In this document: one piece after another, positions 8,301-37,180 of the stretch
How the letters are laid out: every line of letters begins with the position of its first letter
How positions within the stretch are numbered: the stretch's first letter is position 1
Source: a virus
Virus record (IMG/VR): IMGVR_UViG_3300009285_004197
Location: 1-39,118 of that record
Length of the DNA stretch: 39,118 nt
Strand: one strand, 5' to 3'
Position numbers and translations under genes: made by a program
The notes under the pieces: model-generated
The model's database searches: none
Told to the model about the DNA's origin: nothing
The model's input: only the letters and a program-made list of their open reading frames with translations

Positions 8301-11300
8301 ATGGCGTCGGGTTGGGGTGGTCTCAACGCAATCATTGAAGAGGCGCGGCAAAGGCGTGAGGAAGAAGCCGCGGCGGAGGAGCGTCGGCGGGCGTTAGAAG
8401 AACAGCGCGCGCGGGATCAATCCGCCTGGCTGCCGCCTTCCTGGTCGCCGTCCCCGCTGCCCCCGCGTGAGGGGGGGCTGTCATTGAAGCCTGCCCGCGT
8501 CGGTATGGACGACCTAGCCCTGGACCGCGTGGACACCGGCGCGCCGTCGCTCTATGCCTCAGACGTTTCGGAACCCACTGTCACAGCACCCCGCACGCCT
8601 TTGACCATCCAACCACAGGCGTTGTCCCCGGAGCTACAGCAGCCTGCCGGTAGGCGCACCATTCCCAGCGGATGGGGTGGCCTTAGCGGGCTAGGGGGCA
8701 TCACGCCGCCTGAGCCTGTGATAGGGCAATCGCAACAAGAACCCACTGTGCCTAGCGGGTGGGGTGGCGTCTCAGGGTTGAGCCGGGCCACCACTTTGAC
8801 CCCGCCGGGACCGGAGACGTGGGCAGGCACCCCACAACTGATTCAACCTTGGCAGCCGCCGGACTGGTTGGCACAGGGCGCAGCCGCGGTAGGACGTGGG
8901 GTGCAGGCGTTAGGCGCGGGAGCGCAAGCCATCGGGACGAGCGACGTTCGTCTACCCGGCGATCTCCGAGAGGGTTTTTCGGCAACCCAATCGTTCTTGA
9001 ACCAACCCGCCGCTCAATACTGGCAGGAGGCGTTTCGTCGCGACCTTACGCGGGCAGGGGAGACGCCGGGCGTCATCCCCAACGTGCAGCGGGTGACCAA
9101 AGCACCGGACTGGGTGCAAGAGGTTGGACAGAGCATAGGCCTATCTCCCCAGCAAGTCGACATCGGCTGGAAGATGCTCGTGCCGGAAGCGGCGGTGTGG
9201 GGTGTGATGTCTTCCAGTCCAGGCAAGACGGCAGGCGCTTACGCGATGACGGGGGTGAACTGGGTTTTTGACCAGGCCCGCACCCTCGCCTCGACGCCCG
9301 CCGATGAGCTGGCGCAAATCGTCGCGGGCGTGCCCGGCACGCCCGGCACGCCCGGCACGATGTTACCGCCTGCCACGGGATTGCTGGCGATGGGGCGCGG
9401 GGTGGGGGGAGATTTGAGCAAGGCGACCGGCGCAATCGCTCAGGGCATGTCACTGCTCGCGCAGCCGGACGGGGCCATGCCTGCCCTGCTCATGTTGTTA
9501 GGTGGAGCAGCCTACGGGACTGGCTTGTTTAATCCGAGAATCCAGAAGATTAACTTCGACCGGGAGATGTCGGGATACCGGGCCGTAATGGATTGGTTAA
9601 ATGGGCTTCCGTCTGCCGAACGGGAGACGGCGGGCCTAGCGATGGCGAACATGATTAGCGGGCCCAATGCGGTGCGCCAAACCGCTGAGGCGTTGATCTC
9701 CAAACCGCAAATCCTTGTCGATCTAAACGCGCAAGCGGCAGCTATTCAGGACGGCACCGCTTTTCGCTATCAAACGGACGCCGAGTACGAAGCCGCGATT
9801 GACGCGCGCAGGCGCGAAACCGGGCAGGAAGCGCGGATTGTTGCCGAGGGAAGAACCGGCGTTGGTCCCTCACTGCCCTCCTTGGCCCCGTCGTCCGACG
9901 CTCTGCTCAACGAACTCGTCCAAGAAAGATTCGACTTTAACCACCGCGAGTTGGCGCTGGCGCAGAAAGGGGCGGAGATCGAACGACTGGAAAAGCTCAT
10001 GCCGGCCGACATTGTAGAGCAGTATATGGACCCCATTTCCGAGATTTTGTACGGCGTCATCGTGGACCCCTGGAATCTAAAAATTCCCGGCTTCCTCTCC
10101 AAGTATTCACCAACGGTGGCGAAGATCATGGGCGAGGCCGATGAACTATTTAGCGCAGGACCAAGGCAGGCGGTGCAAAACATAGAGCAAGCCCAACAGG
10201 CGACGGGGCCGGTCATGGAAGCACTCCGGCAGGGCTTGGTACCGGAAGGGGACAAGCTGGTCAAGTGGAATCCCTACACATGGTGGCGGCGCACACCCTG
10301 GAGTAAGGCCAACTTAGACGCTAACTGGTTGACCGACCTGTCGAGCTTCCTTTTTAAGGATGTGACCTACAAGGAAGACGCCCGCACGATTTTGCACGCG
10401 CTCAACAACAACCCGGAACTGCTCATTGCGGGAATCGCGGTGCGCTCGCCCACCGCCATGGAAGGTATAGTGAGAATCCCGCCAAGCGTAATCGGCAATC
10501 GGGAAGTCGCCCAGCGTTTGCCCATTCTATCCATGTTACCGGAAAACTGGGTAGAAGGCCTGGTCTCGTTACAGGGCGAAGGGGTCTTTATCCCGAAACA
10601 ATTGCAAGCGGAAGTGGACACGCTCTTTTATGAAGGAGCGAAAAGGTTCCACGGGCTGGGACTGTTGGTGGGTGCGCCGGTCGGCACGGTGGACGTGCGT
10701 CTGCGGCGTCTGCCGGACGGGACCGGCATCGTGGAGTACGTTGACGAGGCGGGCACGGTCATCAGTGGCACGGAACCCATGCCCTTTGCCGACGCCGATC
10801 TGCAAGTGACTCGCCTACGCGCAGCAGCCAAACAGGACAAAACTCTGTTTCAGCAGATAGGCAGCTTGCCGCGACGAATCGCCTGGTTTCAGCGGGCGGT
10901 GATGTCCGACAACTTTTTGGCGCTCTCGATACGCAACATCATTCGCAACTCAGAATCGGCTGTCGCCCAGGCGTTTGGCGTCGATGCCTATAGTTGGCTA
11001 TCCAGTGACGAAATTGTCAGGGAATGGGCGAAAGACTTTGGCGGTCTCGCACCGGGTGAACGCGGACTAGCGATGCAGACGGATTACGTGCGCGGGGCGG
11101 CGGGGGGACTTAACCAACCGAGCAGCGGTCTCTATGATGCAATCGCTCAGTTTATCACCAAGAACCCCGACAATCCCGTCAGTCGTTTTATGCGCGGGGC
11201 CTACAACCTATCCTACGGCAAGGCCGAAGTGCCGCTTGGCAAGGGGCGCAGCTATGGTGTCAGCGAGGAAGTCAACCGCTTCAAGGTCAGCTTTGAGGCT

Positions 11301-14300
11301 TATCGCAAAAGCAAGCGCGCGTCTCTACTCAGCGACGGCGACCAACTTGTAGCTGACCTGGCGGCGCTGCCCAATGCGCCGCCGCCCGAATGGTTGCGAG
11401 GGCTGTATAACATTTACGTCGAATACGGGCAAAAGGGGACCAAGCAAGAATTATTCAACGCCCTGCGCGATTATGTAAATGGCGATGCCTCCAAGGTCGT
11501 CACCTTGAAGGCGATGGGCATTGAACCCGGCATCATAACGAACGAGGGTTGGGAGCAACTACACGATATATTTGCCCGTATCGACTCCCTTAGCGATGAC
11601 GAGTATCGTCAGGCAATTGACATACTCTTTGAGGGTGAGAACAGTTCCTCGTGGCGGTCACTGACGGACTACCCGCCGCAGCGCGGCGTCTATGAGTGGT
11701 CTGATGTGGTGAACCCGACGGAACGGGGCGTACTGCACGGTAGTTTGATACAGTCAGCGCAGTTGGCCGGAATCGACGCCGCGCAGGCTCAGGCTCAGGC
11801 GGATCGCGTGATTGAAGCCATTATTCAGGGTGAGCGCGCAGGCTCATCGGCGTTTATCCAAGAGCTTTCCGACTTGTTACCGCAGGCTACGCCAGAACAG
11901 GCGCGCCAATTGTGGGGCGCTGCGATGGATTTTGCCTACGACGACTATCTAGCGCGGGGCGTGGCGCGCACGGTTTCCGATACCGCAGCCAATCGTGCGC
12001 TCGAATTGAATACGTCCGCAGGTTGGATCGATAAATTCAACCGAACGGCCCTGGCCTGGGAGGAATACGGGACGGGTTTGGCGCAGCGCGGGGATGAGTA
12101 CCGACAGACGCTACTCGGTATTATGAACGGCCAGGCCTACAGTCCGAAGGAAAGTCCCTGGGATGCCGTGCGGCGATGGGTGACGTATGATCCCGTTGAG
12201 TTGGAAATCGCGCGCAGCATCCCGCTGGGCAAAGCGAGCCTGGAAGCTAAAGCGGAATGGGACCGTGTGATCCAGGCGAACCGCGCGGCGGTAGACCACA
12301 GCGTGGCGTACCTGTTCGACGCTTTCCGCCGTTATCCCACCCTGGCTAGTTTTGATATTCTCAACCAGGCGTTACGGGAGGTGGCGGAGGTTGGCGGGGT
12401 GGCCAATGCGTGGGTCAGCGCGCGCCGGGCGGAGGCATTTGCCGGTACGTTAGACTGGACGAGATTCTATCAGGTACGTAACCAGGCCTGGACTCAAATG
12501 GTGGATGACCAGGTAGCGTTAAACCAGGCCTATGCGCGGTCCATCGTGGCGTTGGCCGTCACGGAGCAGGCGGGCGACACGATCAAATGGACCGACAGCG
12601 GTTTTATGGGCGGCGAGTTCCAGTTGCGGTTCCCGAACCCGGACGGGACGTGGACCGCCAAGCGTCTGTCGGATGGGCAGGACATGACGTTTGCTGCGCC
12701 TGGCAGTGGGACCGCCATGCCGGAAGTGCCACAGAATGTGTACGACGCCTATCTGCAAGTCGCCAAAGGCGAGCAGCAGGTAGACCAGGTGATGGAGGAC
12801 GTAGCGCGCACGGTGGGGCCGGTGGAGAAATATGCGCCGCCTGCCGCGCCCCAGGTTATGCCGGGCAGTTTGGAAGCGCCAAAAACTACACCGCTTGTAG
12901 CGAAAACCGGGGAGGTGACGGCGGCACTACCCGCGACGTCCGCCACCGCGCCAACCGCACAGCCCCTGCTGCGTGGAAATATCCCGCTAGACCTTTACGA
13001 CCGACTCAGGGAGCTTGACTATCCTGGAGCCTGGATCGCGGCAATGACGCCGGAGCAGGCACTAAAGGCATCTTTGTTGTTGGAGACGCCTTTATCTGTA
13101 CCGACAGATATTATACCGGAGGCATATCCCATCGCAGCCGATGTAGTATCGCATCAGTTATGGCCCTGGCTACGTGGTTTGGGCTATACCCCGGAACAAA
13201 TCGCTTCGCTTACACCGACAGAGGCATGGGACCTGATTCGTACACGGCGAGCCGAAATTCCAGCTTTATCACGTGTCGAAGATATAGGTCGCATACCGTT
13301 GGCTGAACTGGAAGGTACGGCTCCGCTCCAAAGGACCGCGGCTGAGCCTGTAGCCGTCTCACCGTCTCGGGTAGACCCCGCATGGACGAAGAAGGAGTTG
13401 GTGGCTGAGTACGGGGACACGCTACGCGCGCAGGCAGAGGCCACGCGGGTAGTTGAGGAGGCTATTCCCGGAGTACCGGCAGGGGGCGTTCAGGGGGCCG
13501 CGGCCAAAGAGCCGTGGCAACTGACGCCGGAAGAGTTGGCTCGGGTTGATTGGGAAACGTCGGGGAGCGGCAGCCGTACACCCAAGCGCGCTTTTGAGTT
13601 GAGACGAAACAAGGGGTCCGATGCGGATGATTGGGAATCTCTTTACGATTTTGTCACCAATCATGATCAATACGACGTAGATGAGGTTTTGGGCAAGAAC
13701 TACGATCCCAAGCAGTACGCCGAGGGCCGCGCGATTCTGAACAAGGCCAAACGAAATCAACCGATCACTGTTTACCGGACAGCGGAATCGGAATTTGATA
13801 ATGGGATTTTGCCTGGTGCGTACGTCAGCGAATCTAAAAGCTACGCGCTGGCGCACTCTGAACATGTTGGGATGGCAAAGCCTAAACTCTTTTCCGTTCA
13901 GGTTTACCCTGATGAACTGCTTACCTTTGGCGACGCCCATGAGTATCTCTATATCCCCCGCGACCCGGAGATAGCCCAACAGCGCCTCGTGGCATGGGCA
14001 GAGGCCACGCGGGTGGTTGAGGAGGCTCCCCTAGATACGTTGACATTTAAGCAAGTATATGGAGAGGATTCTCCCTACTCGTCCACTGTCCTGAGAATCA
14101 TCCAGGAGGAAGTCGATAAGACAGTCGAGCGACGCGGGCTACGCGCCAACGCCCCGCAGGTTTCGGACATCAGAAAAAGACTGATAGACGACCTATACGA
14201 CAACAAAAAACCGGTTGTGTGGAATCGTATCAGGAAAGAGTTGGCGCGCGAGGAGGCGGTCAGAGAAGCCCGCTTGACCGTAACTCCCGGCGCTTTTATG

Positions 14301-17300
14301 CCGGACGATGAGAAGTTATTGGCGCGGGCGGGGCCGCCCGCGCAGGTAGACCCGACCACGCTGACCAAGAAGGCCATGCTGGACCAGTACGGCGACACTC
14401 TCCGCGCCGAGGGGCTGACCGACGCGCAGATGGGTCGTATGTCCAAGCGCGAGTTGGCGGACAGGATCAACGCGCCGAAGGTAGACCGGGCGCAGGCCGT
14501 CAAGACTGGGCTGCGCGGTGGCGGTCCCATGACGCAGGCCGAAGCAAAGGACGTTGCCAACCAGATTGCTCAGGAATGGGACCGGGTAGCGGTCGGTGAA
14601 CATGGACTCGCGGGCATTGATGGCATGGTGCTGGGCTATAAACGCGGCGGCGCGTTCAATATGAACCTGAACCGCGGCGAAGTGACCAAGTTCCGTGACT
14701 TATACGGCAACACCATTGCAGGCCGACAGATCAACGATATCAACGACGTGGCGGCTCTACTCAGCGAGTATGATCGGGCTAAATCCGTCGCACGTGAGGC
14801 AAGGGTGACAGACGCCCAGGCCGCACTATTCGAGACGATGACCGGGCCTGAGATCGTGGACGCAGTGGCGGACGATTTGCGGATGGGCGGCTTCGATGAC
14901 GCCCAACTGGAGGCTCTCCGTCAACGTCCTCGCAAAGAGATCGTGGATTACCTGGCTAACTTCTATTACCCGGACGAGACTGGTCCCGTCTGGCGAACCT
15001 ACGACTTCAAGGTTCCTTCCTTCCTGGACATGGACCCCAACGACGATCGCAGTCTGTACGAAATGTTACTCGACAACCTGTTCCGCAGCCGGAAGTCAGG
15101 CGGGCTGAAAGCGGATGAGGCGGGGGACGTGACGCGTGGTCTGATCCGTGACAAGGAAGCAGCCCGCACAATTCTGCTCAACGAACTGCCTAACATTCGC
15201 CGCGGGAACATTGAAAACACGCTGACCCCGGCGCAACGACTGCGCGTTTGGGATTTGGTGCGCCGTTATGCTACCCAACGCTATGATGAAACGTTGGGTA
15301 AAGCGAAGTACGTAGCCAACCGGGTGGGCGAATGGGTCATGCTCGACATGAGAACGGGCAACCGTTTCATCGACCAGGGTTTGCGGCTATTCGTGCCCTT
15401 CCATTACTTTGTCTCACGGATGCCGTCGCGTCTGGCAATGTTGGCGATCAACAACCCGGCCATGCTCAACATTTACTACGAAACTCAACGACCGATTGAC
15501 CGCTATCACCGGCAGAACGAAATGCCAGTTCGCTTCAAAGGGAAAATTCCCACCGGCATCAAGACACCAATGGGAGAGCTTTTTATCGACAACCCGTTTG
15601 CCAGCATTCTGCCCTACGGCACCTATGTGAACCCCAATCCGTACCTCTCGCCGGAAGATGCGGCGGGGCCGGTAGAGCGCAAGCTAAACAGCGTGACGCA
15701 ATGGAACCCGTCCGGGTTTATGCCCCTCGTTCAGTTTGGCATTGCCGCTGGGCTTGACGCCTACGAACCGCTACCGAACGGGAAAAAGCGAACCGATGAG
15801 TTTGAATTGGGGGACAATATTCCCCTGTATCGCATACTAGGCTACGGGATACAGGCGGCGACGGGAAACGTTGCGCCGGGCGCAACCAAGGGACTCTTGC
15901 GGTCAGGCGATCAGTATGATGTCAATCGGGCGAATCGGACGGCGGCCAGCCTGGGGACGGAACGTAACATATTCTCCGTCGTCGTTCAGTACGCCCAGCA
16001 GATCATCACCAATCGCTACAACCGCGACCCGGAGATGACCAACGTAGACGAGCGGTACTACGCCGACGCAAGGGCGCTGGCGGAAGAAAGTATTCGCGTC
16101 GCGGGCCTAGAGCGCCTATTGTCGACCGGGGCTTCTTTGGCTACCAGTCTGCCGATTTATGCGTATCCGCCGGGCGAGGAGCAAAATCGCGCGGCAGGTC
16201 GCCAGTATTGGGGGCTTGGCTACGACATGAACGGAAACCGCCTGGGCGGGCGGACGGCGCAGCGGCAATTCATGGAACAGAACCCAGGCTTGGAGGGCGC
16301 TTGGTCGGCGGGGGATGTCGCACCGGGTTTAACCGCAACCCTAAATGCGACCTATGATGAACGGTCCCGTCAGTATGAACTACGCAAGGAGGCGGAGCAA
16401 GCGGCGGTCAACCAACTGCGCGACCGCAATCCCAACGCGCCGATCCGTGAGATCACTGCGGCGAAGAATGAAGCGACCGCCACCTATGATCAGCGCATTG
16501 ACGAGTTGACGGGACAGATCAATGACATCAAAAAACGGCAAGGCGCGGTCGAGCCACCACGCACGGCCTTCCGTGACCCCACCAGCGGTATGAATCCGCA
16601 GGAACGGGAATCGGCCTATGTGCAGGGCATCGTCGGTAACGCATGGAACTTGCCGGGTAGACCGACCAGACCCGATGAAGCCACGGCGACGCCGGAAGAA
16701 ATGCAGGCATATTATCAGGCGTATGCAGAGTATGCGACCAAGCAAGAAAACTATGTCGTCAGTGCCTTGACGCAAGGCCCAACCACCGACTACCAGCGTT
16801 CTCAGCGAGGTGGCAACAAAGGTTACACCGACGTGGCGGCCCGTGAAATCTGGTGGCAGGCACAGAACAAAAACACGTCCGCCTGGGAGCTTCGCCGGCG
16901 CGAAGAAGAGGACCGCAAGTGGGATGCGATTGACACGGCCACGGCGGTCAATCTACGTGACGCCAAGCAGCGCATTCCCGGCGGTGACCGGATTCTCCAG
17001 ACCTACCTGAACACGCCGGCAGGGGACGAGCGAGCCGCCTTGCGGGATAAAGACTGGCGCTATGCGGCGGTGACGACAGCGGCCTACAATCCCGACGTAT
17101 GGGATGCCATGATCTCCGAGTTCGGGTTGGCGAAGACCCAAGCGTACTATATGGGACGCAGCGCGCCGAAACCGGAATGGCCGCGCCCAGAGGGTTCCCG
17201 CAACGCCACGGAAGAAGAACTCCAGACGTACTACACTGCACGTGACGAGTACTTTGTGGCTCATCCCCATGAGGAGGAGATTGGCCTATGGCTGTATGGG

Positions 17301-18749
17301 CGGTTAACTTATTCCGATTTTAACCAGACTCAAGGAGGCCCGTGGCGCTACGAGAATGGGCAGTGGGAAAAAGCAGAGAGTCTATTCCCACGGTTTGACC
17401 AGGGCGCACAGTACGACAAGGCAATGGAACTATTCACTCCTCGCATCTTCGACATTGAGCGCGAGTTCAAGCAGGCCAGCGTTGATGGTAAGTGGAGGCA
17501 ATGGCGCGACAGTCACAAAGCGGATTATGCTCTGCTGGTTGGATATCAAGAATGGCAAAAATCACTGATCGAGATTCCCGGAACGGACAAAACTGCGGGA
17601 CCTATTGTGGCGCAACTGCCCACCACGCGGTGGGGCGTCAACCCTGCGGAACAGATCATGACGCCCGTGCCGCAAGGGATGCAACCACGGGAAGTGACTT
17701 CCCGCACGCCGGGAACCAACATCCCGCAAGGGTGGGGTGGCATCAGCGGCATGGGACGGCCTGCGCCACAGCAGACATTCATCCCCACGTGGGGCGACGC
17801 ATTGCCGCCGCTAGGTGGGCAGCCGCCCGAGCGCCCCATGGGCCCAGTCGCACCACAACTCGGCATGGCAGGCGTCAACCTGCCGCCGGAGACGGAGCGC
17901 ACCGCACGGCAGTGGGCTATGCAAAGCGAGTCGTTCCAAAAGTCGGCTGCGTGGGAAGCGCGACGGCAGGCCGTGTATACGGAGTTCGGCGAGGACACCG
18001 GAAACCTATACGACCAATACCTGGCGCTACCGAAGGGAGATGCGCGGTCCGCGTTTAAGGCGGACCATCCCGAATTGAGGGCCGTATCCCTGTACACCTG
18101 GAACCCAGATGAGTATGCGTATCTGACCGAAACTTACGGCAAAGACGGCGTGATGACGTGGGCCATGACACCGACCTGGGCGGACACGCAACAAGCCAAG
18201 CAAGCGCGCAGCGATTACTACGATGCTCACCCGCAGGCATTTGAGATCAACGCGTGGCTGTATGGCCGACCGGGGGACCAGGGGGCGCTCGGCGGTGAAG
18301 GCGACATCACCGACGACGAGACCTTTACGTACAACTTCGGAGCCGATTATGACACAGCAAAGCAGATGTTTGGCGCGGACATCTGGACCATCGTCGCTGG
18401 TTACAAACGTGGTTGGGACAAGCAGACAAAGGCGGCTTACTTTGATCAGTATCCGCAACTGAGCGCATTCTTCGACTGGTGGTATGCCAACTTGCCGGAC
18501 ATGGGCGTGACGGCGGCGGCTGGGTATGGGCGCGCTTACTACGGTGGCGGCGGCGGCGGCGGAGATTATGTCTACGAGGGGGGCTTCGACGCTTATGTTG
18601 ACCCGCGGCAGATGCAGAGCACGCTCTGGTATGGACCGGATAGAAGGCAGGCGTATCAGCCGCCGCGCTGGTATGCGCCTGGCTGGTTGGGTGCGGCGCG
18701 GGACATCGGACCGGAGCCGATCCGCAAGTGGCAGCCGCCGAGATGGTGA
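8301..18749 (+). CDS. Giant 3482-residue virion-associated (polyvalent-type) protein with ART-like domain
   Basis: This single frame covers 10.4 kb between portal and scaffold. An Arg/Glu helix (residues 10-40) is followed by Pro-rich linkers with repeated SGWGG motifs. Predominantly helical modules follow, with hydrophobic stretches near 290-460 and a conserved-looking RNIIRN motif near 875. An ADP-ribosyltransferase-like module lies near 1720-1900 (ITVYRTA, then GAYVSESKSYALAHSE, then HEYLYIP). A motif LFVPFHYFVSRMPSRL near 2361 resembles a feature of other very large phage proteins. Two homologous C-terminal copies (about 2890-3005 and 3228-3322) and a Gly/Tyr-rich tail end the protein. 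Position and size suggest an internal protein ejected with DNA, comparable in role to T7 gp16 or P1 DarB-like proteins. That role is inference. Confidence 0.8.
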   Translation: MASGWGGLNAIIEEARQRREEEAAAEERRRALEEQRARDQSAWLPPSWSPSPLPPREGGLSLKPARVGMDDLALDRVDTGAPSLYASDVSEPTVTAPRTPLTIQPQALSPELQQPAGRRTIPSGWGGLSGLGGITPPEPVIGQSQQEPTVPSGWGGVSGLSRATTLTPPGPETWAGTPQLIQPWQPPDWLAQGAAAVGRGVQALGAGAQAIGTSDVRLPGDLREGFSATQSFLNQPAAQYWQEAFRRDLTRAGETPGVIPNVQRVTKAPDWVQEVGQSIGLSPQQVDIGWKMLVPEAAVWGVMSSSPGKTAGAYAMTGVNWVFDQARTLASTPADELAQIVAGVPGTPGTPGTMLPPATGLLAMGRGVGGDLSKATGAIAQGMSLLAQPDGAMPALLMLLGGAAYGTGLFNPRIQKINFDREMSGYRAVMDWLNGLPSAERETAGLAMANMISGPNAVRQTAEALISKPQILVDLNAQAAAIQDGTAFRYQTDAEYEAAIDARRRETGQEARIVAEGRTGVGPSLPSLAPSSDALLNELVQERFDFNHRELALAQKGAEIERLEKLMPADIVEQYMDPISEILYGVIVDPWNLKIPGFLSKYSPTVAKIMGEADELFSAGPRQAVQNIEQAQQATGPVMEALRQGLVPEGDKLVKWNPYTWWRRTPWSKANLDANWLTDLSSFLFKDVTYKEDARTILHALNNNPELLIAGIAVRSPTAMEGIVRIPPSVIGNREVAQRLPILSMLPENWVEGLVSLQGEGVFIPKQLQAEVDTLFYEGAKRFHGLGLLVGAPVGTVDVRLRRLPDGTGIVEYVDEAGTVISGTEPMPFADADLQVTRLRAAAKQDKTLFQQIGSLPRRIAWFQRAVMSDNFLALSIRNIIRNSESAVAQAFGVDAYSWLSSDEIVREWAKDFGGLAPGERGLAMQTDYVRGAAGGLNQPSSGLYDAIAQFITKNPDNPVSRFMRGAYNLSYGKAEVPLGKGRSYGVSEEVNRFKVSFEAYRKSKRASLLSDGDQLVADLAALPNAPPPEWLRGLYNIYVEYGQKGTKQELFNALRDYVNGDASKVVTLKAMGIEPGIITNEGWEQLHDIFARIDSLSDDEYRQAIDILFEGENSSSWRSLTDYPPQRGVYEWSDVVNPTERGVLHGSLIQSAQLAGIDAAQAQAQADRVIEAIIQGERAGSSAFIQELSDLLPQATPEQARQLWGAAMDFAYDDYLARGVARTVSDTAANRALELNTSAGWIDKFNRTALAWEEYGTGLAQRGDEYRQTLLGIMNGQAYSPKESPWDAVRRWVTYDPVELEIARSIPLGKASLEAKAEWDRVIQANRAAVDHSVAYLFDAFRRYPTLASFDILNQALREVAEVGGVANAWVSARRAEAFAGTLDWTRFYQVRNQAWTQMVDDQVALNQAYARSIVALAVTEQAGDTIKWTDSGFMGGEFQLRFPNPDGTWTAKRLSDGQDMTFAAPGSGTAMPEVPQNVYDAYLQVAKGEQQVDQVMEDVARTVGPVEKYAPPAAPQVMPGSLEAPKTTPLVAKTGEVTAALPATSATAPTAQPLLRGNIPLDLYDRLRELDYPGAWIAAMTPEQALKASLLLETPLSVPTDIIPEAYPIAADVVSHQLWPWLRGLGYTPEQIASLTPTEAWDLIRTRRAEIPALSRVEDIGRIPLAELEGTAPLQRTAAEPVAVSPSRVDPAWTKKELVAEYGDTLRAQAEATRVVEEAIPGVPAGGVQGAAAKEPWQLTPEELARVDWETSGSGSRTPKRAFELRRNKGSDADDWESLYDFVTNHDQYDVDEVLGKNYDPKQYAEGRAILNKAKRNQPITVYRTAESEFDNGILPGAYVSESKSYALAHSEHVGMAKPKLFSVQVYPDELLTFGDAHEYLYIPRDPEIAQQRLVAWAEATRVVEEAPLDTLTFKQVYGEDSPYSSTVLRIIQEEVDKTVERRGLRANAPQVSDIRKRLIDDLYDNKKPVVWNRIRKELAREEAVREARLTVTPGAFMPDDEKLLARAGPPAQVDPTTLTKKAMLDQYGDTLRAEGLTDAQMGRMSKRELADRINAPKVDRAQAVKTGLRGGGPMTQAEAKDVANQIAQEWDRVAVGEHGLAGIDGMVLGYKRGGAFNMNLNRGEVTKFRDLYGNTIAGRQINDINDVAALLSEYDRAKSVAREARVTDAQAALFETMTGPEIVDAVADDLRMGGFDDAQLEALRQRPRKEIVDYLANFYYPDETGPVWRTYDFKVPSFLDMDPNDDRSLYEMLLDNLFRSRKSGGLKADEAGDVTRGLIRDKEAARTILLNELPNIRRGNIENTLTPAQRLRVWDLVRRYATQRYDETLGKAKYVANRVGEWVMLDMRTGNRFIDQGLRLFVPFHYFVSRMPSRLAMLAINNPAMLNIYYETQRPIDRYHRQNEMPVRFKGKIPTGIKTPMGELFIDNPFASILPYGTYVNPNPYLSPEDAAGPVERKLNSVTQWNPSGFMPLVQFGIAAGLDAYEPLPNGKKRTDEFELGDNIPLYRILGYGIQAATGNVAPGATKGLLRSGDQYDVNRANRTAASLGTERNIFSVVVQYAQQIITNRYNRDPEMTNVDERYYADARALAEESIRVAGLERLLSTGASLATSLPIYAYPPGEEQNRAAGRQYWGLGYDMNGNRLGGRTAQRQFMEQNPGLEGAWSAGDVAPGLTATLNATYDERSRQYELRKEAEQAAVNQLRDRNPNAPIREITAAKNEATATYDQRIDELTGQINDIKKRQGAVEPPRTAFRDPTSGMNPQERESAYVQGIVGNAWNLPGRPTRPDEATATPEEMQAYYQAYAEYATKQENYVVSALTQGPTTDYQRSQRGGNKGYTDVAAREIWWQAQNKNTSAWELRRREEEDRKWDAIDTATAVNLRDAKQRIPGGDRILQTYLNTPAGDERAALRDKDWRYAAVTTAAYNPDVWDAMISEFGLAKTQAYYMGRSAPKPEWPRPEGSRNATEEELQTYYTARDEYFVAHPHEEEIGLWLYGRLTYSDFNQTQGGPWRYENGQWEKAESLFPRFDQGAQYDKAMELFTPRIFDIEREFKQASVDGKWRQWRDSHKADYALLVGYQEWQKSLIEIPGTDKTAGPIVAQLPTTRWGVNPAEQIMTPVPQGMQPREVTSRTPGTNIPQGWGGISGMGRPAPQQTFIPTWGDALPPLGGQPPERPMGPVAPQLGMAGVNLPPETERTARQWAMQSESFQKSAAWEARRQAVYTEFGEDTGNLYDQYLALPKGDARSAFKADHPELRAVSLYTWNPDEYAYLTETYGKDGVMTWAMTPTWADTQQAKQARSDYYDAHPQAFEINAWLYGRPGDQGALGGEGDITDDETFTYNFGADYDTAKQMFGADIWTIVAGYKRGWDKQTKAAYFDQYPQLSAFFDWWYANLPDMGVTAAAGYGRAYYGGGGGGGDYVYEGGFDAYVDPRQMQSTLWYGPDRRQAYQPPRWYAPGWLGAARDIGPEPIRKWQPPRW
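13433..14027 (+). repeat. 31-bp direct repeats flanking the ART-like module
   Basis: A 31-bp sequence starting ggcagaggccacgcgggt occurs at 13433-13463 and 13997-14027 with a single mismatch, 564 bp (188 codons) apart and in frame. Each copy encodes AEATRVVEEA. The sequence between them holds the ART-like domain and is visibly more AT-rich in its centre than its surroundings. Confidence 0.85.
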
Positions 18750-32048: not shown

Positions 32049-32054
32049 GCTGTA

Positions 32055-32147
32055 GTGACCGTGCGGGCGTGGGTGGTGGCGACGGAGCGCACGCGCGGCG
32101 AGATTGTGGCGCTGGCGGCAGGCGAGGGGTATTTCACGATTGAATAA
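32055..32147 (+). CDS. Possible 30-aa peptide, doubtful
   Basis: GTG 32055 opens 30 codons (VRAWVVATERTRGEIVALAA and so on) ending at TAA 32145-32147, seven bases after the fibre-tip gene. It overlaps the end of the convergent leftward gene by 14 bases. High GC and sensible codons, but too short to judge; it may be a gene fragment. Confidence 0.25.
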   Translation: MTVRAWVVATERTRGEIVALAAGEGYFTIE

Positions 32148-32379
32148 TGTCTGTCATGTCATTCACCTCTCTAATACGTCCCAGCGCCGCCAGCATTGCC
32201 GCGGCCACTTGCACGGCAGTATAATCCCCGGACGGTTTGCAGCGGGCATGTTCACGCCACCGTTTGCGATAGCCGGGTTTAATCTCGATAATGGTAGGTT
32301 CGTTACGCTTGAGCCGGTACTGTGCGCCGCTTGTCAGCGCGTTTGCTTGTCGTGCCACCTTTTTGTTCCTTTCGTTCAA
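32134..32379 (-). CDS. Small basic protein, last gene of the leftward operon
   Basis: An 81-residue frame starts at TTG 32379 behind a GGGGGG run. The first half is Lys/Arg-rich (NERNKKVARQANAL, KPGYRKRWREHARC) and the second helical (YTAVQVAAAMLAALGRI). The frame is open further upstream, but that extension overlaps the Cys-rich gene and looks non-coding. Function is unknown. Confidence 0.45.
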   Translation of the reverse strand: MNERNKKVARQANALTSGAQYRLKRNEPTIIEIKPGYRKRWREHARCKPSGDYTAVQVAAAMLAALGRIREVNDMTDIIQS

Positions 32380-32389
32380 TGTACCCCCC

Positions 32390-32704
32390 TCATTTCGCCC
32401 CACGCGGCGTCTCAATGATGCGGGTCGTGTAAGGTCTGCGTCCCCGTGGCCCGCGCTTGGCGCGCAGCGCGTCATGGCGAATGGACCACACCAGTCTGAA
32501 TAAGTTGCCATCCCAGCCGCTGCGTGTTGGGCGACGTTGGGGTGGAGCGGGCCGTCTGACCTGTTCATGGCATGAGCAATCCTCGAACTGGCAGGTGTGG
32601 ATGACATGCCCTCCGGCCCAGTGGCAGCATGGATTTCCGCCACTACATTTCTGCTTACATGGCACGCGCGTCATGTTATATTGATCTTCGGCGAAATTGG
32701 GCAT
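32390..32704 (-). CDS. Cys/His-rich small protein
   Basis: A 104-residue frame from ATG 32704, eight bases after the upstream stop. A cluster CKQKCSGGNPCCHWAGGHV then HTCQFEDCSCH provides many possible metal ligands, followed by an Arg/Pro-rich tail. The pattern suggests a zinc-binding protein. No strong ribosome site; AGGAG lies 17 bases away, so coupling or another start is possible. Confidence 0.5.
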   Translation of the reverse strand: MPNFAEDQYNMTRVPCKQKCSGGNPCCHWAGGHVIHTCQFEDCSCHEQVRRPAPPQRRPTRSGWDGNLFRLVWSIRHDALRAKRGPRGRRPYTTRIIETPRGAK

Positions 32705-32711
32705 TGTGTAA

Positions 32712-32954
32712 TCATGGCTGCATCTCCTGTTCCCATTCCATTTTGCGCGTTTCTTCCGGTCCCGGACAACTGCGAGGTGTAAGGCCATAACGCCATCCCT
32801 TGCGCGTCCGACCAATCATGTCCAGGTGCATGTCTGGCGTGTTGATGTAGTCGAGTCCCGCGACACGCTTTCGAGTTCGCACGCCGCCGCAGACGATGCA
32901 AAACGAAACGATGGTATCCATGAATGTCTCGCCTTCGTCCCATTGATGCCTCAT
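32712..32954 (-). CDS. Small protein with CxxC motif
   Basis: The 80-residue protein starts at ATG 32954, six bases after AAGGAG. SFCIVCGGVRTRKR gives one CxxC, then LDYINTPDMHLDMIGRTRKG and a charged end. The second start, ATG within GETFMDT, is in frame. Function is unknown. Confidence 0.6.
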   Translation of the reverse strand: MRHQWDEGETFMDTIVSFCIVCGGVRTRKRVAGLDYINTPDMHLDMIGRTRKGWRYGLTPRSCPGPEETRKMEWEQEMQP

Positions 32955-33145
32955 GGTAGTCTCCTTCCTTCCGATTTTCGTCTCGCTTCATCCCGGTGCA
33001 GACCGTGGATGCGCTGCGTCAACTCGGCGATCTGGTGTCGCAGTTCCAGCCGCTTGCCCGCGGCTTGCGGCATGTGGGTCAGGGCATCATGCTCGGCGTG
33101 CAGCTTGGCGATGTCGGCGCGCAGGGCGATCTCTTGGTCAGTCAT
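32951..33145 (-). CDS. Small helical coiled-coil protein
   Basis: A 64-residue, almost fully helical protein (EIALRADIAKLHAEHDAL, RLELRHQIAELTQRIHGL) starting at ATG 33145, which overlaps the upstream stop (ATGA). Its stop overlaps the next start. It could pair with the neighbouring helical protein. Function is unknown. Confidence 0.55.
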   Translation of the reverse strand: MTDQEIALRADIAKLHAEHDALTHMPQAAGKRLELRHQIAELTQRIHGLHRDEARRKSEGRRLP

Positions 33146-34747: not shown

Positions 34748-34995
34748 GGCGACGCTCTAAGTCGTTCGCGACCTGCCGGAATGATGCGGTACTTGCGCTT
34801 CATGTCGATTCGTTGGCCGTCGTTGCTGCGAGTCTTGAAGTATTGGGCCTCGGCATAGCCGCGCCGGCAGAGTTTCGCCAGCATGTTGCCCGTGCTGCCG
34901 ATCTCTGGCGGCAACACCCAAATTTGCGCTTGGGCCAGGGCCGCGAGCGCCTCGTAGGCGACCGTGGATAATTTTTTCGTGCGGATTACTGTCAT
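34744..34995 (-). CDS. Winged-helix DNA-binding protein B
   Basis: The 83-residue protein has STVAYEALAALAQAQIWVLP, NMLAKLCRRGYAE and KYRIIPAGRERL, the same helix-turn-helix-wing-helix order as the next gene. The two may be diverged paralogues. It starts at ATG 34995 with GGGAG about 10 bases upstream. Confidence 0.55.
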   Translation of the reverse strand: MTVIRTKKLSTVAYEALAALAQAQIWVLPPEIGSTGNMLAKLCRRGYAEAQYFKTRSNDGQRIDMKRKYRIIPAGRERLRASP

Positions 34996-35281
34996 GTCAA
35001 TGAGTCTCCCAGGGACCGAGCCATATCACCGTCGAAACCGTACCTACGCCGGCAATGGCGGCGTCACGGCTGATACAGCCCGGGCCCCACGCAAAGGAGG
35101 GTTTACTCGCCTGCCGCACCAGTCTGGACTATACCCGCAGGCGTGTGACTGCGCCCTGGGCCGGATTCACCTGGTGTAGCCCGTTTCCACTGTCGAGATC
35201 AGATTAGTCCCGCCGGTCGCTCACGGTGGCGATTTGGCTCGGCTGCGTGCTCGTCGTCATGCTCACGCGTGGCCGGGCTAG
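34996..35281 (-). other. Non-coding stretch without a supported gene
   Basis: This 286-bp stretch lies between the tRNA-like gene and winged-helix gene B. I see short palindromes and only short or unconvincing frames, and no clear promoter. It may be the trailer of the tRNA-like transcript and leader of the replication genes. Confidence 0.5.
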
Positions 35282-35405
35282 TGGGTCGGGCAGGAGTTGA
35301 ACCTGCATCCTCTATGATGCGAACACGACAGGGATTGTGTCGAGAATTGCCACACAATCGGGTCGAGTGTGTTCGCGCGCCGCTCTAGCCTTGAGCTACC
35401 GACCC
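35282..35405 (-). tRNA. tRNA-like gene with an enlarged central region
   Basis: On the minus strand, GGGTCGG (5' end at 35405) pairs perfectly with CCGACCC, followed by discriminator A. TA and a D-arm with stem GCTC/GAGC and loop AAGGCTA follow the 5' strand. The T-arm is GCAGG-TTCAACT-CCTGC (35290-35306). Between D and T arms there are 74 bases where about 22 are expected after position 26. The extra sequence folds into GCGAACAC/GTGTTCGC and, inside it, GATTGTGT/ACACAATC. I cannot assign an anticodon. CCA is not encoded. It may be a tRNA with an insertion or a tRNA mimic. Confidence 0.6.
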
Positions 35406-35410
35406 AGGGT

Positions 35411-35435
35411 GCCGGGTGTTTGCGGCACACCCGGC
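35411..35435 (-). other. 9-bp hairpin just upstream of the tRNA-like gene
   Basis: GCCGGGTGT (35411-35419) and ACACCCGGC (35427-35435) form a 9-bp stem with a 7-base loop, 6 bases before the tRNA-like 5' end. It has no T-run. It could mark processing or protect the transcript. Confidence 0.5.
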
Positions 35436-35702
35436 GAAGCCGCTGCCCCACCACCCGGTGATTACGGCTACGCCGGGAACCGTCCTGCTTATTCTGCTCC
35501 GCAGTACCACCGCCATCGTGATTAGTTTTCCCTTTTCGGCTCATATTCCGAATCTGGAATCCTCCCACGTTAGCTACGATCTCCTGGGAGCATTGGACCA
35601 CCGCCGCAGTGCCGACCTGCGCCGCCCGAAGACGGGGAACCGTCCGCGGAGTGTGTCGCTACAAGTCCGTCCGTTCATTGAGTACCCTCACGAGATCGCG
35701 CG
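35436..35702 (-). other. Non-coding stretch without a supported gene
   Basis: The 267 bp between the hairpin and the next leftward gene contain open frames on both strands, but these lack ribosome sites, and the minus-strand frame runs into the tRNA-like gene. I see nothing I can support. Confidence 0.45.
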
Positions 35703-35954
35703 CTAATCATCACCCCGCGGCAACGTCACCACGAGTTTGCCGGTCTTATGGTCGATGCGAAACTCCCAGGCATCTAACTCCGGGTATCGCTCTCGAAGCG
35801 ACCGATATAGCATTTTGTTCTGCGCCTCCGCTTGGGCCAATAGATTTAGGATGCCGTTGTATAGTATGTCGCCCTTCTCGACGAAGGCTGTCGCGGTGCC
35901 GCGGGTGGCATCGTCCATCTCTATCACAAAGCCAACTTGAATTTCGCTATTCAT
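35703..35954 (-). CDS. Small protein of unknown function
   Basis: The 83-residue protein starts at ATG 35954, six bases after GAGGAGA. It has a beta-strand start (IQVGFVIEMDD), a helical centre (ILYNGILNLLAQAEAQNKML) and strands at the end (WEFRIDHKTGKLVVTLP). Probably an early regulatory or accessory protein; no family recognised. The frame is open upstream into a remnant of another gene. Confidence 0.65.
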   Translation of the reverse strand: MNSEIQVGFVIEMDDATRGTATAFVEKGDILYNGILNLLAQAEAQNKMLYRSLRERYPELDAWEFRIDHKTGKLVVTLPRGDD

Positions 35955-36107
35955 TTCGTTCTCCTCGCTAGAATCAGATTTTATCCTCCCGGCCATACTC
36001 CGCCAGTTGGGGGCGCACTTGCCGCCGACTGACGGCTTGTGATGCCGATGCACCTGCGTCACAAACGCGTGCGCTTCAGCGAGAGTTAATGGTTGGAGTT
36101 GGAGCAT
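35955..36107 (-). pseudogene. Truncated XF1762-family gene start
   Basis: From ATG 36107 the frame reads MLQLQPLTLAEAHAFVTQVH then RHHKPSVGGK. This is the characteristic N-terminus of XF1762-like GNAT-fold phage proteins (the HRHHxPxxGxK signature). After about 30 residues the family sequence stops and unrelated residues run into the next gene in the same frame. The usual length is about 120-150 residues, so most is missing. A fusion protein of 134 residues is an alternative reading. Confidence 0.6.
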
Positions 36108-36259
36108 CACACCCACCCCATCGTCCGCGCCGCCAGCCACAGCAGCAACGCGAATGCCGCCAGGAACCACACGCCGCGCTCGTGATGATCTCCGCGTTCC
36201 CCGCTTACACGAGGACGGGGACTAATCTTGTCGTAGTCGTGCCATGTTGCGTCCGTCAT
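36107..36259 (-). CDS. Small membrane protein (50 aa)
   Basis: ATG 36259 overlaps the stop of the RHH gene (ATGA), and the TGA at 36107-36109 overlaps the next ATG (TGATG). The 50-residue frame has a charged N-terminal half and one membrane helix near the end (GVWFLAAFALLLWLAART). Coupling on both sides supports expression. Function is unknown. Confidence 0.55.
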   Translation of the reverse strand: MTDATWHDYDKISPRPRVSGERGDHHERGVWFLAAFALLLWLAARTMGWV

Positions 36260-36907: not shown

Positions 36908-37180
36908 ATGAGTATAACACTTGAGTACAGCAATAGCAAGGATGTCACGACCCGCAATCTGGACGCCCAGGCCGCCCGGCGTGACCTGGAATGGCAACGT
37001 GGATTCGGCGCTTGCCAGTTCGCAGAGTGCAGCTACGCCGACCTGCCGAACGAGGACCAGCGCCAGGGCTGGCGAGCCGCCGAACGAGCCGGGGCCGATG
37101 CCGATACCGAGACGTACTTAGCCGACCGCCGTCATGCCACCGACGAATATACTGTCGTTCGCGAACTAGGAGCGTGGTAA
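36908..37180 (+). CDS. Small protein of unknown function
   Basis: The 90-residue protein starts at ATG 36908. It has a short strand-like start (MSITLEYSNSKD), then Arg/Trp/Ala-rich helices (ARRDLEWQRGFGACQF, RQGWRAAERAGADADTETYL). Two bases separate its stop from the recombination gene. Unknown; possibly an accessory of the annealing protein. Confidence 0.6.
   Translation: MSITLEYSNSKDVTTRNLDAQAARRDLEWQRGFGACQFAECSYADLPNEDQRQGWRAAERAGADADTETYLADRRHATDEYTVVRELGAW

Follow-up and report, generated by a model that had tools for sequence, protein, structure and literature searches.

The middle of a tRNA-like gene of 124 nt, which is found on the minus strand at positions 35282–35405 of a viral record of 39,118 bases (the whole of which was analysed, and is here called the window), is, as judged from sequence, devoid of a convincing anticodon arm, both as transcribed and after excision of part of it. 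Because a long hairpin stands in place of the codon-reading loop, the gene as written cannot read codons. The reading that we prefer, still tentatively, is that of a tRNA-derived gene for a non-decoding non-coding RNA, in which an irregular hairpin of some 58 nt, built on two nested 8-bp stems, has taken the position of the anticodon arm. This reading is somewhat favoured because excision restores no convincing anticodon arm and because the gene gives no match to type A, the commonest insert family of tRNA genes in our sample, described below. If the gene is real and expressed, the phage would make a tRNA-shaped RNA that does not decode, and this would give direct access to the ways in which phages make use of tRNA-binding enzymes and defences, or deceive them.

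Arms, detection and surroundings of the gene

On the minus strand, the 5′ end lies at 35405 and the 3′ end at 35282, the latter being the discriminator A (A73); the trailer reads CTAG and CCA is not encoded. From 35405 to 35282 the order is GGGTCGG-TA-GCTC-AAGGCTA-GAGC, then 75 nt, then GCAGG-TTCAACT-CCTGC-CCGACCC-A. The strands of the acceptor stem (GGGTCGG, 35399–35405, and CCGACCC, 35283–35289) form seven pairs out of seven; the D arm (GCTC-AAGGCTA-GAGC, 35382–35396), also recovered in the Rfam alignment, has a 7-nt loop with GG and a pair probability of 0.77; the T arm (GCAGG-TTCAACT-CCTGC, 35290–35306) reaches 0.99–1.0. The T arm is also the sole match in the window to GGTTCRANYCC, a pattern with at least one match in 34 of 100 shuffles. 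In a covariance-model search, a check suggested with an earlier, sequence-only reading of this DNA, the tRNA family RF00005 scores 42.6 bits against a gathering score of 29 (E = 5e-8; permissive search of 301 bases), leaving 69 nt unaligned between the D and T arms versus 17 in the model. That reading had placed a tRNA-like gene at 35282–35405 and described its acceptor, D and T arms as textbook, and both statements are borne out, with the strand now given as minus. A canonical anticodon arm (5-bp stem, 7-nt loop, U33 and a purine at 37) was not found in the RNA as transcribed, and the gene was missed by ARAGORN with default settings, by the whole-window Rfam scan at gathering scores and by the RF00005 genome search.

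Genes for terminase, portal and head proteins, a replication initiator and RecT are present in the record. The tRNA-like gene is located in a non-coding stretch upstream of a leftward replication-initiator operon, the first listed open reading frame (ORF) of which begins at 34995. A protein-coding origin is rejected, since both listed ORFs overlapping the gene obtain non-coding scores (−0.17 and −0.15, from the codon usage of the window itself) and the longer one has no Pfam match. To the right, the ORFs at 35416–35706 (plus strand, 0.08) and 35703–36170 (minus strand, 0.11) appear weakly to moderately coding, and RecT starts at 36991. A promoter matching the sigma-70 consensus, the one tested, was not found just upstream of the minus-strand 5′ end. 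A 9-bp inverted repeat on the minus strand, GCCGGGTGT-GCCGCAA-ACACCCGGC (35411–35435), ends 5 nt before the 5′ end of the gene; it is not followed by a T run, and the fold of the 75 upstream nt prefers other pairings in this GC-rich stretch. No iteron array was found, and this explanation is rejected. Elsewhere in the window, a single ORF of 3482 aa occupies 8301–18749 and is tape-measure-like by size and place only, which, if so, would imply a very long tail; about 1 kb at 32050–33100 has a weak coding score (best frame ≤0.09 in 210-nt windows) and is perhaps non-coding too.

The centre of the gene

The centre of the gene (35307–35381) replaces the approximately 23 nt of an ordinary anticodon arm and variable loop. 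The sequence-only reading had counted 74 bases here, to be corrected to 75 nt; its estimate of about 52 extra bases stands, the gene being 52 above a class I tRNA. The D stem is joined to the long helix by a linker of 5 nt, instead of 1 nt. The outer helix, detected by the nested-repeat test and by the fold, is formed by GCGAACAC (35369–35376) and GTGTTCGC (35319–35326), with pair probabilities of 0.63–1.0; the inner helix pairs GATTGTGT (35352–35359) with ACACAATC (35333–35340) at 0.93–1.0 and, in the folds, encloses the loop GGCAATTCTCG. A 12-nt variable region (AUCAUAGAGGAU / ATCATAGAGGAT; 35307–35318) follows, for which the fold offers a possible mini-hairpin of 3 bp. In the fold of the full RNA (predicted energy −51.1 kcal/mol), all three tRNA arms and both nested helices have high pair probability. 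When the letters of the centre were shuffled 5000 times (a test that was chosen after the stems had been seen), two nested perfect 8-bp repeats arose in none of the shuffles and any 8-bp repeat in 113; the nested 8-bp stems, which had been pointed out from the letters, can thus be taken as real. Taken by itself, the centre folds with an energy that is only mildly unusual (z = −1.89; 7 of 200 shuffles equally good); for the RNA extended by 7 nt at either end, z = −3.03 (1 of 200).

An acceptor stem and a T arm suffice for recognition by host tRNA end-processing enzymes. The transcript would be trimmed by host tRNA enzymes and receive CCA, and a stable tRNA-shaped RNA, unable to decode, would persist with its hairpin shown at the anticodon position. 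It is predicted to act by binding, for example by occupying or titrating tRNA-binding proteins of the host or of its defences; alternatively, it could serve as a scaffold, the long arm of which binds a partner. A putative decoy for a tRNA-cutting defence nuclease is a possible version of the binding role; such a decoy would be expected to display the nuclease's anticodon-loop target in a loop, and no convincing anticodon loop was seen here. Among the three proposals made from the letters, namely an unusual insertion in a tRNA, a mimic and a decoy, it is the insertion that is confirmed; an RNA of tRNA-like build that does not decode is somewhat favoured over an intron.

The serious rival is a decaying phage tRNA gene, whose other arms are still intact but whose anticodon arm has been lost to an insertion, leaving an RNA without function. 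We regard it as doubtful, and yet to be reckoned with because no relative was found that would show selection. A blastn search with 35150–35550 against phages returned just matches of 30–32 nt in seven records, six of them over tRNA-Phe, and the protein searches led to no related locus of the tRNA-like gene, either in phages or in viral contigs. In the latter, the initiator, head, RecT and terminase proteins gave one weak relative (L122; 41% over 61 aa), with no tRNA at E ≤ 1 within 10,945 bases. Against phages, the head protein and the replication initiator gave zero matches, the terminase matches of about 27% and RecT, among the best 12 of 41 records, 44% to Synechococcus S-LBS1 and 26–34% to the other 11, mostly actinophages. 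Decay also agrees with the absence of a convincing anticodon arm, and nothing indicates selection on the insert. However, all three arms are fully paired and the insert is strongly paired in a nested manner, an outcome that would be rare from random insertion.

Excision tests in this gene and in other long tRNA-like genes

The third reading, in which a short intron-like insert splits a tRNA gene and its removal leaves a decoding tRNA, is best judged alongside other long tRNA-like genes. Viral contigs, plus three contigs from metagenome-assembled genomes (MAGs), were scanned with patterns for tRNA D and T arms that stand too far apart. A first scan listed 119 distinct matches, 83 of which pass a loose arm filter; the full comparison set holds, among the matches listed, 152 distinct sequences from 133 loci, 148 of them viral and four from MAG contigs. 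For this set at least 6 of 7 acceptor pairs and at least 4 of 5 T-stem pairs were demanded, failures being dropped, identical sequences merged and near-relatives kept separate. As this sampling indicates, viral contigs readily yield long tRNA-like genes; the counts describe a sample of contigs, among the matches listed, and not prevalence.

The excision test asks whether the removal of one stretch restores an anticodon arm, scored against shuffles of the gene's own letters; the score is our own and was not tuned on known introns. Among the matches listed, excision reaches p ≤ 0.05 in 99 of the 152 comparison genes (for the viral genes, 96 of 148) and, at p ≤ 0.01, restores a strict canonical arm (5 bp, U33, R37) in 60 of 152, as compared with strict arms in 43 of 3040 shuffles. 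Judged by these figures, inserts that can be removed from phage tRNA genes appear to be genuine and, within the sample, frequent. The stretches excised from the 60 genes measure 25–62 nt, with one below 30 nt (among the matches listed).

One family, type A, is an insert of approximately 37–50 nt that interrupts the 5′ strand of the anticodon stem in phage tRNA genes and consists of a 7-bp hairpin followed by CAGCA, commonly ACAGCAA. Its members are L003:4175-4242(−), L021:5478-5534(+), L031:2146-2206(+), L064:1990-2050(−), L104:2989-3047(−), L109:2502-2561(+) and 13 more, one member of the set being in a MAG contig; L207 was removed by hand from an initial 20, as its AGCA looked incidental, leaving 19. 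The set was chosen on AGC[AG] and a strict arm, so that the invariance of CAGCA is partly by choice. In the hairpin, which was predicted from the same alignment that served for its covariation tests, 88% of cells are paired versus 60% when shuffled, and the covariation score was matched in none of 500 shuffles; one of the five measures, that of pairs changed on both sides, was unexceptional, 73 of 500 shuffles scoring as high. A search with the type A model found additional copies, and in the eight long-tRNA loci scanned against Rfam no family of inserts reached its gathering score. Among the comparison genes, 37 have the motif CAGC[AG]A, of which 32 reach p ≤ 0.05 and five have p ≥ 0.07 (among the matches listed); the 21 strict motif-bearing genes present 11 different anticodons after excision (again among the matches listed). 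Type A appears to represent a novel class of very small tRNA introns.

Inserts of other kinds were also seen. In a second type (L034, L073, L120, L207, L013, L155, L163) the insert folds into a long hairpin, starting with UAA some 2–4 nt past the D stem and ending mostly near GUUA directly before the anticodon arm. An insert similar to AGUAGGGAGUCAUGACCUGAUGGUA is common to three further long tRNA-like genes (L033, L089, L136), two of which (L089 and L136) have a hairpin with a loop of 5 nt at the anticodon-arm position.

The gene studied here is not a clear member of this set of genes with removable inserts. Its best excised arm has a score of 11 and p = 0.0725 (2000 shuffles, variable loop of 4–5 nt), and allowing variable loops of 4–21 nt at a slightly reduced score gives p = 0.22. 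Since motif genes mostly fall at p ≤ 0.05, the value obtained argues against an intron; it would nevertheless be compatible with one, above all with one of unusual geometry, those few motif genes at p ≥ 0.07 being comparable. Two anticodons can be read after excision. The best CGC reading, UCGUG-UUCGCAU-CAUAG with the variable loop AGGAU, has a C-A mismatch and two wobbles. The GUC reading, GCGAAC-CUGUCGU-GUUCGC, requires an odd geometry, with the 5-nt linker and the 12-nt variable region, and when the inner part is shuffled a comparable loop arises 2339 times in 5000. ARAGORN in intron mode (-i) also reports GUC, on another stem, as tRNA-Asp(gtc) with a 43-nt intron. This call is rejected as uninformative because an intron-bearing tRNA is likewise called in 437 of 500 shuffled centres; among the comparison sequences listed it is called in 77 of 83 (82 tRNA calls in all). 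A standard finder, in other words, misses the gene by default and in its intron mode gives nearly any centre an anticodon and an intron.

Comparison with known inserts is no more favourable. The window has no match to the type A model (R1) at E ≤ 10 with default filters, and the motif is absent; none of the six Rfam matches at E ≤ 10 in 35200–35500 is a known intron family; and in the folds the polarity of the bulge-helix-bulge is reversed with respect to the archaeal rule. The insert had been judged far too short for a self-splicing group I intron, in agreement with the sizes of that group. Given the unconvincing excised arm, the odd GUC geometry and the uninformative ARAGORN result, an intron is considered unlikely.

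Other tRNA-like genes and known systems

Returning to the preferred reading of a non-decoding RNA, other tRNA-like genes without a normal anticodon loop are of interest. Local alignment of the insert to all 152 comparison sequences gave L178 (z = 3.8), L142 (z = 3.6) and L064 (z = 3.4) as the best three (60 shuffles each, values not corrected for the 152 comparisons), which does not establish kinship with these inserts. Seven viral contigs (L045, L071, L236–L240) carry a conserved tRNA-like gene of 118–121 nt; its D and T arms are intact, the loop of its anticodon hairpin measures about 3 nt, and it has a conserved extra domain. The hairpin stems vary (CCCGA-CGC-TCGGG, CCCTT-CGC-AAGGG, CCCGG-CGT-CCGGG) and are imperfect in L239. 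With this family the present gene shares the lack of a normal anticodon loop and an identical acceptor stem, GGGTCGG/CCGACCC, most of which was demanded by the search pattern. It differs in the extra domain, L045 and L071 falling outside the 12 best of the 152 alignments to the insert, and outside the arms the insert and all seven genes have only short words in common (e.g. GGCAAT, CGCATC). Furthermore, the flanks CATCATC/GATGATG extend the acceptor stem in all seven genes of the family, with nine further pairs in L045 and L071, whereas here the stem gains just U-A. The L071 locus contains a Burkholderiales-2 RNA too; the copy in L238, for which the phages collection gave no match, is accompanied by genes for a transcriptional repressor and a ParB-like protein.

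A second conserved group (L137, L142, L146, L159, L172, L205, L213, L214), with which L242:4003-4131 is listed, combines a CCCC/GGGG or CCTCC/GGAGG hairpin with an inserted arm. With L142 as the query, an Escherichia coli plasmid gene of 129 nt annotated as tRNA-Met is matched at 81% identity over 72%; in L142 itself, genes for a recombination-associated exonuclease and a ParB-like protein lie downstream of the tRNA-like gene. By the comparisons made here, both groups serve as precedents for the kind of gene rather than as relatives of it. The gene resembles other odd long phage tRNA-like genes and points to a larger class. It is conceivable, if still rather speculative, that the locus belongs to a large and mostly undescribed set of phage tRNA genes with structured anticodon-arm elements of approximately 30–62 nt, some of which would be excised as very small introns, others being permanent non-decoding mimics with a long binding arm used in infection.

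Among known RNAs, the YrlA Y RNA has a tRNA-like module with a long helix for the anticodon arm, in a permuted arm order. A phage counterpart, with the tRNA-like module and a long helix bound by the Ro60 (Rsr) protein, would have a similar general design, and a weak Rfam match to RF02553 exists at 35356–35457 (19.3 bits, E = 0.11). This score is to be compared with a gathering score of 69, several pairs in the outer helices of the alignment are non-standard, the TROVE domain is absent from the record (which may be incomplete) and the arms are here in the normal tRNA order; the explanation is very improbable and is rejected. In tmRNA and similar tRNA-like RNAs, the acceptor stem and the T arm are kept and the anticodon arm is replaced, as in the present gene, which differs in being far shorter and in its intact D arm; ARAGORN called no tmRNA.

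A literature search covering open papers in PMC listed none on these insert families. The one directly relevant paper that it gave is on the Lak megaphages, some tRNA introns of which are called ‘enigmatic’ (PMC6784885); the authors state that phage tRNA introns were, to their knowledge, unreported before. A covariation-supported type A family would make such short phage tRNA introns directly testable. In that paper (PMC6784885), one Lak intron is delimited by comparison with intron-free copies, whereas no such copy is known here, and excision here gives no good anticodon arm. What the two have in common is that a phage tRNA gene contains a short additional segment which the bacterial settings of tRNA searches do not recognize (PMC6784885).
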